This document shows, piece by piece, positions 22,306 through 26,051 of a stretch of DNA of 64,000 bases. Every line of letters starts with the position of its first letter. Position 1 is the stretch's first letter. The translations under genes were made by a program, and so were the position numbers. This DNA is from Bacillus sp. 103mf (lineage in GTDB: Bacteria; Bacillota; Bacilli; Bacillales; Bacillaceae_G), in NCBI RefSeq assembly GCF_900116295.1, contig NZ_FPAF01000003.1, forward strand, positions 248,001-312,000. The letters run 5' to 3'. The notes beneath the pieces were generated by a model. The model was given only the letters and a program-made list of their open reading frames with translations. It made no database searches and was not told where the DNA came from.

Positions 22306-22700
22306 GGATGCACCACCAATATGTAATTTTTCCAATGAAAAGAATATCACAATTGGTAGTGGGTGAATAGATATTTTTATTATGAATTCATTCTTTTTTT
22401 TTAGTAAATTGACAAAACAGTGACAGAATACCCTTTTTTTCTACGTAAAAAGAATGGAATTTTACTTTATCAAGTATGGAATTCAATCGTTTATCTCGTT
22501 CATTTGTACATTAACACCTACATGATGAATCACTAGTTTGTTCGAAAAATAAAGATGAGGTTGGTAAATACAGTTCTTTTTAGATGATATAAATAATTAA
22601 GGTTATAGTTAATACGTTTTGATATTTGATATGTGTATTCGTAAAATACTGAAAATTATGTTAAAATAATTGTTAATTGTTTGAAAAGGAGGATTTTATT
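22306..22700. other. Divergent promoter region, kimA / PPK2
   Basis: 395 bp of very AT-rich sequence. TTGTCA on the minus strand near 22.41 kb could be the kimA -35. I see no GC-rich folded leader of the ydaO (c-di-AMP) type and no strong promoter for PPK2 beyond AT-rich -10-like sequences near 22.66 kb. Confidence 0.4.
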
Positions 22701-23501
22701 ATGAAAAATGGTCGTCTTGCAAAAATAGATTTAACGAAAAGAATGGAATCAAAAAAAATATACAATAAGAAGCTCGAAAAATATCAAATGCGTTTACTGG
22801 CGTTGCAGCAAATTTTACGAAAAGAAAAAATAGCCGTTATTATGGCTATGGAAGGTTGGGATGCTGCTGGAAAGGGCGGAGCAATTAAACGAATTACCGA
22901 GCATCTTGATCCACGCGGCCTGCAAGTAAATCCAATTGGTGCACCTGCTCCTCATGAAAAACGCTATCATTATATGCAGCGATTTTGGCGAAAAATCCCG
23001 CAATATGGTCAAATCACTATTTTCGATCGCTCATGGTACGGTCGTGTATTGGTTGAACGCGTAGAGGGTTTTGCTACAAAGGAAGAATGGACGAGAGCAT
23101 ACGGTGAAATCAATGATTTTGAAAAACTATTAACAGATGATCGTTACATAGTAGCAAAGTTCTTCTATCATATTAGTAAAGATGAACAGTTAGCACGGTT
23201 TAAAGATCGAGAGCAAAATCCTCTTAAGAAATGGAAAATTACAGATGAAGATTGGCGTAATCGTGAAAAGTGGGATGAATATGTCGAGGCCATGGAAGAT
23301 ATGTTTGAAAAAACAGACAAACCAAATGCGAAGTGGCATATTATACCTGGCAACGATAAGTTGTATGCGCGTGTGAAGACATTGAAAGTGATCATTTCAT
23401 TAATTGAAGATTATTTCTTAGAACATGATATAGAACTGCCATCATACTATCATGAAATGAAAGAAGAAAAGCAAAAGGAAAACGACCAAGTGAATATATA
23501 A
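22701..23501 (+). CDS. Polyphosphate kinase 2 family protein
   Basis: A 266-residue PPK2. I start at ATG 22701 behind AAGGAGG. The Walker A is EGWDAAGKGG (residues 51-60) and the Walker B is IFDRSWYGR, followed by the lid region RFKDREQNPLKKWK. PPK2 enzymes transfer phosphate between polyphosphate and nucleotides (ADP/GDP or AMP). Single-domain proteins of this size are usually class I or III, and the direction cannot be decided here. The cytosolic enzyme would link polyphosphate stores to nucleotide energy charge. Confidence 0.9.
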   Translation: MKNGRLAKIDLTKRMESKKIYNKKLEKYQMRLLALQQILRKEKIAVIMAMEGWDAAGKGGAIKRITEHLDPRGLQVNPIGAPAPHEKRYHYMQRFWRKIPQYGQITIFDRSWYGRVLVERVEGFATKEEWTRAYGEINDFEKLLTDDRYIVAKFFYHISKDEQLARFKDREQNPLKKWKITDEDWRNREKWDEYVEAMEDMFEKTDKPNAKWHIIPGNDKLYARVKTLKVIISLIEDYFLEHDIELPSYYHEMKEEKQKENDQVNI

Positions 23502-23746: not shown

Positions 23747-23775
23747 TTGTATCAGCTACATAATTATGCTAAAAT
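23747..23775 (+). promoter_or_regulatory. Promoter of the hflX leader transcript
   Basis: TTGTAT (23747-23752), a 17-bp spacer ending in TGC, and TAAAAT (23770-23775) form a sigma-A promoter with an extended -10. Transcription would start near 23782, about 390 nt before hflX. Confidence 0.7.
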
Positions 23776-23808
23776 TTATGTAACTTTTAATGAACGGAGG
23801 GGTCTCCT

Positions 23809-23850
23809 TTGATCTTAATCAGATTACGTCTCAATACTTTGTGCCAATAA
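23809..23850 (+). CDS. Leader peptide MILIRLRLNTLCQ
   Basis: A TTG start six bases behind GGAGGGG (23796-23802) begins a 13-codon ORF ending in TAA. The peptide contains IRLR. The R-L-R motif is the arrest signal of a class of erm leader peptides (for example ErmDL) that stall ribosomes with macrolides. The SD could pair with CTCC at 23804-23807. This ORF is far too short for ordinary gene finding, but its SD, motif and place before hflX make it credible as a regulatory peptide. Confidence 0.6.
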   Translation: MILIRLRLNTLCQ

Positions 23851-23945
23851 TTGAATAGCGCTCAAAGGCTCTGTCTGTGTACAGAGTAAACGGGATTGGT
23901 CTGTCTTTTTAAAGGAACCCTATTGAACTTATATGTGAAAAGAGG

Positions 23946-23969
23946 GAAGGACGAATACGCCTTCTTTTT
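23946..23969 (+). terminator. First leader terminator
   Basis: GAAGG / CCTTC with a 9-nt loop, then TTTTTGTTTT. It lies about 95 nt after the leader peptide stop. Confidence 0.6.
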
Positions 23970-24110
23970 GTTTTACCTTTAAAACAGAATGATGCAATGC
24001 ATGTATACAAACATTTTTTATGTTGTATGATGCTGGATTTGACGACCATTGAACACGCAAGAAGCGATGCTTCTTTATGTTTATTTGTTATGCTTTCATC
24101 CGTTTATGAA

Positions 24111-24138
24111 AAACACAGGCAGCAGCTTGTGTTTTTTT
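24111..24138 (+). terminator. Second leader terminator, just upstream of hflX
   Basis: AAACACAGGC / GCTTGTGTTT with an AGCA loop (one G-T pair) is followed by a T-run. It ends 34 bp before the hflX start, inside the leader, so it must be read through for hflX expression. Confidence 0.75.
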
Positions 24139-24172
24139 AGTTTGCGCGTAATCGAAATGGAGGAATAAATAT

Positions 24173-25435
24173 ATGGAACAGCTAGTACAAAGAGCAATAT
24201 TAGTTGGAGTGAATTTAAATAGTGAAAGTGATTTCGAATATTCAATGGAGGAGTTAGCGAATTTAACAGAAGCGTGCGATGTTGAAGTGATAGGGAAAGT
24301 AACACAAAATTTACATCGTGTAAATCCATCTCATTATATTGGAACGGGTAAGATTGAAGAAGTGTCAGCGTTCGTAAAAGAAGCAGATGCGAATTTAGTC
24401 ATTTTCAATGATGAGTTATCGCCTTCACAAATTCGAAATTTAGAAGCAGATTTAGATTGTAAAGTGATTGATCGTACGATCTTAATTTTAGATATTTTTG
24501 CGCAGCGTGCTAAGACGAAAGAGGCGCAACTACAGGTTGAGGTAGCACATTTGCAATATATGATGCCTCGTTTAATTGGCCTTCGTGAATCGTTAGGAAG
24601 ACAAAGCGGTGGTGTTGGTACGAAAAACAAAGGTGTAGGGGAGAAAAAATTAGAGCTTGATCGCCGTAAGATTGAAGAGCAAATTGCTGTGTTAAATAAA
24701 GAGTTAGAAGCGCTCGTTGCACAGCGTCAAACACAGCGTAAACAGCGCAAGAAAAATGAAGTACCTGTTGTTGCGTTAGTAGGGTATACAAATGCAGGGA
24801 AATCAACAACGATGAATGCGATGCTTGAAATGTTTAACGGATCTGCAGAGAAACAAGTATTTGAAAAAGATATGTTGTTTGCGACGCTTGAAACAGCTGT
24901 GCGAAATATTCAATTGCCAGATAACAAATCGTTTTTATTAACGGATACCGTTGGATTTGTTAGTAAATTGCCGCATCATCTTGTGAAAGCGTTCCGTTCA
25001 ACGTTAGAAGAAGTAGCGGAGGCGGATCTATTGATTCATGTTGTGGATTATGCAAATCCGAACTATGAGCATCTAATTGAGATTACAAATCAAACGTTAA
25101 AACAAATCGGTGTAGAAAATATTGCAACTATTTATGCCTATAATAAAGCAGATGTTATTGATATTGAAATTCCAAAAGTACAAGATAATCGCGTGTATTT
25201 ATCTGCGAAACAAAAAGTAGGTATCGATGAACTTGTGCAAATGATTCGCACGCAAATTTATAAGGATTATACAAAGTGTGAAATGTTAATTCCTTATGAT
25301 CAAGGACAGTTAATTTCGTATTTTAACGAGCATGCTCATGTTTTATCAACAGACTATGAAAATGAAGGTACGAAGATTACCCTGGAATGCAAAATGAGTG
25401 ATTTGGAAAAGTATAAAAGGTATGTAATAAGTTAA
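24173..25435 (+). CDS. hflX: GTPase HflX
   Basis: A 420-residue HflX. The N-terminal HflX domain has HYIGTGKIEEV and DRTILILDIFAQRAKTKEAQ, plus the glycine-rich loop RQSGGVGTKNKGVGEKKLE. The GTPase domain has G1 GYTNAGKST, G3 DTVGF, G4 NKAD and G5 LSAK. HflX binds the ribosomal E-site/50S, splits stalled ribosomes under stress, and in some Firmicutes gives macrolide/lincosamide tolerance. ATG 24173 follows TGGAGGAA. Expression is likely controlled by the leader described above. It is monocistronic. Confidence 0.95.
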   Translation: MEQLVQRAILVGVNLNSESDFEYSMEELANLTEACDVEVIGKVTQNLHRVNPSHYIGTGKIEEVSAFVKEADANLVIFNDELSPSQIRNLEADLDCKVIDRTILILDIFAQRAKTKEAQLQVEVAHLQYMMPRLIGLRESLGRQSGGVGTKNKGVGEKKLELDRRKIEEQIAVLNKELEALVAQRQTQRKQRKKNEVPVVALVGYTNAGKSTTMNAMLEMFNGSAEKQVFEKDMLFATLETAVRNIQLPDNKSFLLTDTVGFVSKLPHHLVKAFRSTLEEVAEADLLIHVVDYANPNYEHLIEITNQTLKQIGVENIATIYAYNKADVIDIEIPKVQDNRVYLSAKQKVGIDELVQMIRTQIYKDYTKCEMLIPYDQGQLISYFNEHAHVLSTDYENEGTKITLECKMSDLEKYKRYVIS

Positions 25436-25490: not shown

Positions 25491-26051
25491 TTATCTTTTC
25501 GTTGCATATATATATGTATCTCTTAATTCCGTCCCATCTACTGAAACGCTGTTATTCTCTAAAATACCTTCTAATTTAAAACCTAATCTTTCAGGTATGG
25601 CACGACTTTTGACATTTTTTGAGTCACAGCGAATTTCTACTCGATTTGCTTGTAATTCATGAAAAGCGAAATTTACAATTCCTGTAACAGCTTCTGTCAT
25701 GTATCCTTTTCCGCTAAAACGGGAGTCAATCCAATACCCAATTTCAAATTTTGGAATATCCCAGTTAATGCGGTGTAACCCTGAAGAGGCAACAAATTCA
25801 CCTGTGTCTTTAAGGAAAATGAGTAATCGTAAATCTTCACGCGCCAAAAATTTTACGTGAGAATCTCTAATATTTGCTTCTACTTCTTGTTCCGTTTGTT
25901 CTTTTTGTGCAAAAGGCATCCAAGGTTTTAATTCTTCAATAGATTCATTGATAGCGTTATATACTTCTTTTCCATCTCCAGGTCTTGGCATCCTTATGAA
26001 AAGTCTTTCCGTGTAGAACTCCGAAGGGAAATTTAATAGTAGTGGATTCAT
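25491..26051 (-). CDS. GNAT family acetyltransferase, RimL-like
   Basis: A 186-residue GNAT of the RimJ/RimL type. It opens with FYTERLFIRMPRPGDGKEVY. The core has FEIGYWIDSRFSGKGYMTEA (the acetyl-CoA loop), then ELQANRVEIRCDSKNVKSRAI and ERLGFKLEGIL. It probably acetylates a protein N-terminus or small molecule; the substrate is unknown. It is convergent with hflX and shares its terminator. Start ATG 26051 with a GGAG-like site. Confidence 0.87.
   Translation of the reverse strand: MNPLLLNFPSEFYTERLFIRMPRPGDGKEVYNAINESIEELKPWMPFAQKEQTEQEVEANIRDSHVKFLAREDLRLLIFLKDTGEFVASSGLHRINWDIPKFEIGYWIDSRFSGKGYMTEAVTGIVNFAFHELQANRVEIRCDSKNVKSRAIPERLGFKLEGILENNSVSVDGTELRDTYIYATKR

Follow-up and report, generated by a model that had tools for sequence, protein, structure and literature searches.

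The gene of interest, hflX, occupies positions 24173–25435 of a 64,000-nucleotide (nt) stretch of the Bacillus sp. 103mf genome (contig NZ_FPAF01000003.1, positions 248,001–312,000; "the window" denotes this whole stretch). Between hflX and the upstream gene (22677–23501, same strand) lie a promoter, a Shine-Dalgarno (SD) sequence, a short leader open reading frame (ORF), and two terminators, T1 and T2. The downstream neighbour (25491–26051) is on the minus strand, and hflX is therefore probably a single-gene unit. This work concerns the RNA leader encoded between the two genes which, on comparison with related leaders, is very probably a ribosome-sensed transcription attenuator with a three-strand switch. 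Its features, including those predicted from the base pairing described below (MFE, minimum free energy), are as follows.

23747–23775, + strand: promoter, with a weak -35 (TTGTAT, 23747–23752) and an extended -10 (TGCTAAAAT, 23767–23775)
23796–23802, + strand: leader SD, GGAGGGG, 6 nt 5' of the leader start
23799–23812, + strand: P1a 5' strand (SD and leader start), pairs with 23908–23920 (helix scan, pair counts, window MFE)
23809–23850, + strand: leader ORF MILIRLRLNTLCQ, TTG...TAA, 13 codons, with the RLR codons at 23821–23829
23820–23832, + strand: P1b 5' strand, stall codons, pairs with 23892–23903 in the off state (helix scan, window MFE)
23837–23867, + strand: P2 hairpin around the leader stop codon, 23837–23844 with 23858–23867 (helices 4 and 5 of the covariation model)
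23869–23886, + strand: P3 hairpin, CUCUG...CAGAG (covariation in leaders)
23871–23895, + strand: strand S, comprising P3 and the start of the P1b 3' strand (cognate-pairing tests)
23892–23903, + strand: P1b 3' strand, GGGATTGGTCTG (window MFE, helix scan, pair counts)
23908–23920, + strand: P1a 3' strand (window MFE, helix scan, pair counts)
23938–23974, + strand: terminator T1, hairpin and U-run, -15.5 kcal/mol as a short segment
24099–24107, + strand: T2-proximal element, UCCGUUUAU, complementary to S
24109–24138, + strand: terminator T2, hairpin and U-run, -15.5 kcal/mol as a short segment
24113–24122, + strand: T2 5' arm, ACACAGGCAG, also complementary to S
24159–24164, + strand: hflX SD, GGAGGA
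24173–25435, + strand: hflX, encoding an HflXr-type GTPase of 420 amino acids (aa) (TIGR03156, E 4.8e-138)

A preliminary description of the region had reported a consensus promoter, an SD-led 13-codon ORF, and two hairpin/U-run terminators ahead of hflX. The ORF and the terminators were found as described, with T2 ending 34 bp from the hflX start. The promoter is instead of the extended -10 type with a poor -35 (3/6 match to the consensus; spacer of 17), and is absent from the listings of simple consensus promoter scans of the window. Its extended -10 pattern, TGnTAnnnT, recurs upstream of 124 of 191 related leaders, against 18.5 expected from letter-shuffled upstream sequences. These 191 leaders comprise 51 from hflX loci, nine from plasmid loci, 130 from the genome census described below, and that of the window; some are duplicates of one locus. 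The GGAGG of the leader SD is invariant across 38 aligned leaders. T1 starts 87 nt, and T2 259 nt, beyond the leader stop codon. A simple terminator scan of the window lists neither; the sole terminator-like site that it does list is a hairpin, AAGAAGCGATGCTTCTT, with a T-rich stretch at 24059–24075, between T1 and T2.

The product of hflX is identified as HflX by TIGR03156. Among solved structures, it matches chain 8a57_D (GTPase HflX) best, at 499.7 bits, with the runner-up at 275.9 bits; we take this chain to be Listeria HflXr. Identity to 8a57 is 56% over 204 aa, and to three second HflX copies 40–42%. A tree of 31 proteins, in which long branches are flagged and the bootstrap is not fully settled, contains a 100/100 split that separates the window protein, 8a57 and other HflXr-like proteins from the three second HflX copies. 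The window protein is thus on the HflXr side, apart from the second copies. The nearest protein relatives found are 79% identical at best (66% and 74% at best in two further searches).

Conservation and alternative pairings of the leader RNA

A homologous leader is present at 51 of 70 loci encoding a related hflX, and a leader hidden Markov model (HMM), built without the window, matches window positions 23785–23927 with an E value of 1.8e-33 (next best, 0.19). The Arg-Leu-Arg (RLR) of the window leader peptide belongs to an R/K-X-R/K stall motif that is present in 57 of 61 leaders (51 hflX loci, nine plasmid loci and the window; the exceptions are L006, L042, L066 and L077). The motif is kept through changes of both codon and residue, with RLR, KFR, RIR, RVR, RTR, KSR and KLR among its variants. 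Folding of the window RNA exceeds that of shuffled sequences (z of -3.5 up to T1 and -6.9 up to T2, with no shuffle equally good). A scan of Rfam gave no match at the gathering score, and just two weak, unrelated matches below it.

When all possible helices in a MAFFT alignment of 38 leaders are ranked by compensatory change, P1a (the SD region paired with a downstream AACCC) comes first, P1b (the stall codons paired with CGGGAUU) second, and P3 third, with one other helix equal to it in count. Together with P2, these helices make up an off structure in which 86.7% of cells are paired, against 81.4% in shuffles. Pairs changed on both sides number 17, versus 8.7 in shuffles (0 of 500 as good), and cells changed on both sides number 58, versus 21.3 (0 of 500; all slid controls lower). 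Both-side changes are seen in four of the ten P1b pairs and in five of the seven P3 pairs, with 95.1% of P3 cells paired.

Strand S is complementary to two regions, and can pair with one exclusively of the other: (i) the stall-codon region, or (ii) the T2-proximal element together with the T2 5' arm (ACACAGGC type). In the window, the second duplex has a predicted energy of -25.9 kcal/mol. The T2-proximal element varies along with S, and both have changed jointly in several leaders. The T2-like hairpins required for such comparisons were initially located by a finder that requires the 5' arm to begin with NNCA[CT][AG][GA]N. The arm consensus from that finder is consequently in part imposed, and the tests were repeated with a motif-free finder. 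The first detects a T2-like hairpin in 141 of 191 leaders; the second detects a terminator-like hairpin in 172, and in 130 of these the 5' arm of the last such hairpin contains CA[CT]A[GA][GA]. A strict script detected T1-like hairpins in 86 of the 191 leaders and overlooked the T1 of the window itself.

Permutation of pairing partners demonstrates that both pairings are specific to their cognate strands. S pairs with its own T2 element at -13.75 kcal/mol, against -10.09 for permuted S (sd 0.24; 0 of 300 permutations as good; n=124), and a control segment 40–60 nt upstream of T2 gives no cognate signal (195 of 300 permutations as good). The preference persists when leaders are thinned to <75% alike, which reduces the effect of duplicate loci: 0 of 1000 permutations are as good overall (n=60), for hflX leaders only (n=28), or for non-hflX leaders only (n=32). 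It likewise persists with the motif-free finder (0 of 1000; n=90). For S against the leader ORF, 0 of 300 permutations are as good (n=172), and 0 of 1000 after thinning (n=83). Finally, the P3 region pairs with its own T2 5' arm at -11.44 kcal/mol versus -8.82 when permuted (0 of 1000; n=25) or, with the motif-free finder, at -9.66 versus -8.01 (0 of 1000; n=68).

In simulated folding of nascent RNA from the window, the predicted pairing of the T2 5' arm with S rises from 0.00 in the free RNA to 0.89 when the stall codons (or the whole ORF) are covered. Across 141 leaders, the mean rises from 0.37 to 0.67 with a ribosome on the stall codons; 64 leaders show a rise of more than 0.2 and none a fall of more than 0.2. 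A block of equal length placed elsewhere gives a mean pairing of 0.32 (n=124). Given that blocking the stall codons raises S–T2 arm pairing in these nascent folds, we propose kinetic antitermination at T2.

Related leaders before other genes

The leaders behind the covariance model R1 are 37 of hflX genes, that of the window among them, and one from a plasmid SDR locus. R1 was used for a census of 398 genomes sampled from the class of one genome (L012, Priestia taiwanensis), with a cut-off of E ≤ 0.001. The model matches 130 places in 107 of the 398 genomes. The genes following these leaders encode macrolide phosphotransferase (33), HflX (27), ABC-F (23), Erm (17), Mef-type (9), RlmA-type methyltransferase (7), LmrB-like efflux (5), macrolide esterase (4), SDR oxidoreductase (3) and other MFS (1) proteins, with one unclear; class names are those of one representative per cluster (single-linkage blastp, E < 1e-15, coverage >45%). 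Hence, 125 of the 130 leaders precede a gene of macrolide/lincosamide-resistance type. Of three census loci at which the first ORF fell into no class, L119 carries hflX and L129 erm (tblastn); L147 is the unclear case, where a 123-aa ORF without a Pfam match comes first and an ABC-F gene starts ~1.4 kb after the leader.

More than one leader is found in 22 of the 107 genomes, and in all 22 the leaders precede different gene classes. Near-identical leaders also occur before different classes (mef and mph, 97%; ABC-F and erm, 97%; mef and rlmA, 96%), which suggests that the leader cassette has been exchanged between genes. The nearest leader shares the gene class in 144 of 191 cases (L119, L129 and L147 being unclassed in this count). 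An HMM of 96 non-hflX leaders, from genes of the erm, mph, ABC-F, mef and rlmA type, matches window positions 23789–23922 with an E value of 2.9e-31 (next, 1.9). Judged by sequence, then, the window leader RNA is homologous to the ErmK-type macrolide attenuator RNA.

Nine loci, drawn from 13 plasmid records, have the leader as well; at the 11 plasmid loci read, it precedes erm, mef-msr, mph and methyltransferase-msr genes. When used as a blastn query, L072, a plasmid erm leader that encodes the peptide MTHSMRLRFPTLNQ, matched 23 of 72,556 plasmid records. Two 315-kb plasmid records labelled Stenotrophomonas rhizophila, L231 (CP031730.1) and CP065518.1, both carry the leader, in L231 before an msr-type ABC-F gene; either the leader has been transferred to a Gram-negative bacterium, or the records are mislabelled.

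Taken together, these results make it fairly likely that a single, exchangeable RNA sensor cassette controls, across Bacilli, eight macrolide/lincosamide-resistance classes (phosphotransferase, ABC-F, HflX, Erm, Mef, RlmA-type methylase, LmrB-like pump and esterase), as well as an SDR oxidoreductase and another MFS protein. In such a cassette, with one strand complementary to the stall codons as well as to the terminator beside the gene, the stall codons, antiterminator and terminator stem would co-evolve as one code, passed between genes.

A proposed switch at the second terminator

The preliminary description proposed that the hflX leader is a drug-responsive attenuator. This proposal is supported in the parts that sequence can test—the stall motif, covariation, the HflXr grouping, and an RNA shared with macrolide-resistance genes—and the pairing test lends no support to specific control at T1. 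How stalling could reach T2 was absent from that description, and is added here from the comparison of leaders. Without drug, the 13-codon leader would be translated and the ribosome released. The leader strand (SD and stall codons) would then pair with the downstream strand and lock S, such that T2 (and T1, where present) ends transcription ahead of hflX. With a macrolide bound (and probably also with a lincosamide), the ribosome would stall at RLR and cover the stall codons. P1b would be blocked, leaving S free to pair with the element before T2 and the T2 5' arm before the polymerase has completed this terminator. T2 would then not form in time and, provided that the polymerase also passes T1, hflX would be made; its product is expected to split drug-stalled ribosomes.

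Several observations weigh against this reading. Firstly, at equilibrium T2 is preferred in both states (0.88–0.90, once its 3' arm is present), and T1 pairing is 0.91–0.94 whether the leader is blocked or free; the switch must therefore be kinetic. Secondly, S–T2 pairing exceeds 0.5 even without a stalled ribosome in 59 of 141 leaders, and is below 0.2 in both states in a further 27. Thirdly, a T2-like hairpin was missing from 50 of 191 leaders with the motif-requiring finder, and a terminator-like hairpin from 19 of 191 with the motif-free one. Fourthly, the free MFE fold of the window contains P1b in a shifted register and lacks P2 and P3: the P3 3' arm is paired with the leader ORF, and the P2 bases are paired otherwise. 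P3 forms in the window once the stall codons are blocked, and S is held by the leader ORF either way, in the covariation structure or in the free MFE fold. Further points are that the permutation tests lessen, and do not fully remove, shared-ancestry effects; that the leader ORF starts with TTG; that the esterase leaders (L174, L200, L204 and L216) and SDR leaders (L198 and L199) have, on reading, no R/K-X-R/K; and that the candidate anti-T1 segment does not favour its own partner (774 of 1000 permutations equally good; n=37).

This last result, together with the formation of T1 regardless of the state of the leader, rules out a thermodynamic switch at T1. Nascent anti-T1 pairing appears solely in the blocked fold of the window itself. 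Specific control at T1 is unsupported.

In addition, the leader is absent from 19 of the 70 related hflX loci: 12 labelled Peribacillus or Bacillus, Priestia taiwanensis, an Ureibacillus, four of Lachnospiraceae type, and one other bacterium. The hflX genes of the Peribacillus/Bacillus-labelled strains and P. taiwanensis (L008, L010, L012, L016–L019, L022, L027, L029, L030, L057 and L070) are 74–77% identical to that of the window. The leader model gave no match at these 13 loci (for L022, within 249 nt of upstream sequence only), and leader regulation thus seems to differ between close hflX orthologues.

The esterase and SDR leaders lacking the stall motif are still matched by the RNA model. 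After the SD, the four esterase leaders have GTGTGGCAAATTAA in common, and the two SDR leaders GTGATAGAT..CGATAR; their leader peptides are very short in some frames. Perhaps these leaders are a sensor for another drug class. Similarly, the ABC-F leaders L159 and L175 encode RLH or RLY in place of the RLR of their relatives, and are still matched by the RNA model.

Such retention of the RNA in leaders with an altered or missing motif is what would be expected if any slow or arrested leader ribosome—through starvation, heat, or other inhibitors—could open the switch, with macrolides only one cause among several. hflX is, in addition, presented as a general ribosome-rescue gene in PMC6310831. 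A general translation-stress attenuator is nevertheless improbable, given the stall motif in 57 of 61 leaders and the resistance-type genes after 125 of 130 census leaders. More improbable still is direct occlusion, in which the stalled ribosome covers the base of the terminator and/or an SD-sequestering hairpin, with no antiterminator. This mode is reported for Bacillus subtilis tlrB (in the relevant part of PMC6851288), and the leader SD is indeed part of P1a; however, both T1 (87 nt) and T2 (259 nt past the leader stop) are outside the footprint of a ribosome at RLR, and the pairing of S with the T2 element is cognate-specific. Finally, that the terminators serve only to shield hflX from upstream transcription, with the ORF incidental, fits the same-strand upstream gene, and is very hard to reconcile with the conserved stall motif, the covarying structure, the cognate switch pairings, and a promoter pattern that recurs upstream of related leaders.

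Comparison with known leaders

An attenuator of the hflX/RLR kind is already known, from two reports. The first is uORFC-6-1, described in passages of PMC8632094 as a conserved Arg-Leu-Arg upstream ORF (uORF) with covarying RNA after the uORF start, found mainly before hflX, with 51 representatives, predominantly in Bacillales. The window likewise has an RLR-type uORF upstream of hflX and covarying RNA 3' of the uORF start (P1b, P2 and P3), with P1a beginning 5' of the start codon. Compared by description, the two differ in that S can here enter a second pairing, with the T2 element and T2 arm, which excludes the first; in that the motif is R/K-X-R/K; and in that the RNA is also carried by nine further gene classes. 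The uORFC-6-1 passages of PMC8632094 mention neither an antiterminator nor any further target gene by name.

The second is Listeria hflXr/rli80, for which the corresponding part of PMC6310831 reports a 14-aa RLR leader, a terminator/anti-terminator, and induction by lincomycin that needs the ORF start. The window resembles it, by description rather than by sequence, in its HflXr-type gene, short RLR leader ORF (13 aa), and terminator with predicted anti-terminator; it differs in having two tandem terminators.

Among resistance genes, passages of PMC4335068 and PMC5418344 attribute the regulation of erm(K) to transcription attenuation on macrolide stalling, and also review transcription attenuation of mef/mel. 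The link to the ErmK/ErmD attenuator of Bacillus licheniformis is through L072, a member of the RNA family of the window: its peptide, MTHSMRLRFPTLNQ, is quoted in the erm(K) context in part of PMC4335068. The target is HflX in the window, and a methylase in ErmK/ErmD. PMC4335068 also reports that the regulatory regions of mef(E)/mel and erm(K) share no discernible homology apart from the peptide; the leaders compared here do not include that of streptococcal mef(E). The tlrB (yxjB) leader of B. subtilis, as presented in the pertinent passages of PMC6851288, encodes the 9-aa peptide MIIQFIRYR; the ribosome blocks the terminator directly, and no overlapping antiterminator was identified. The window shares with tlrB, by description, an R-X-R leader peptide and predicted terminator control (by a macrolide-stalled ribosome in tlrB). 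Unlike in tlrB, the leader ORF of the window ends at 23850, ahead of T1 (from 23938) and T2 (from 24109), so that a stalled ribosome would not overlap the base of either terminator.

In full-text searches of open-licence papers, none was found that unites these genes under one RNA or describes a three-strand code. The breadth of the family and the code may therefore be new. Under the proposed switch, a GTPase that splits ribosomes and is encoded on the chromosome would share one drug-sensing circuit with Erm, Mph, Mef and ABC-F genes. The switch makes base-level predictions of how a stalled ribosome could affect a terminator more than 250 nt away. It also provides a sequence signature for inducible macrolide-resistance genes, some of them plasmid-borne, whose inducibility is invisible to a gene catalogue alone. 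If the reading is true, the two or three copies that some genomes carry before different genes would constitute a macrolide regulon that is encoded in cis and lacks a regulator protein, and the code would predict sensors whose stall motif is altered, as well as new macrolide-linked genes such as the SDR oxidoreductase.

One further observation, and the sole hint from the searches at the Bacillus cereus group named in the preliminary description, is a 0.9-kb stretch with a 93% match to a Bacillus arachidis plasmid.
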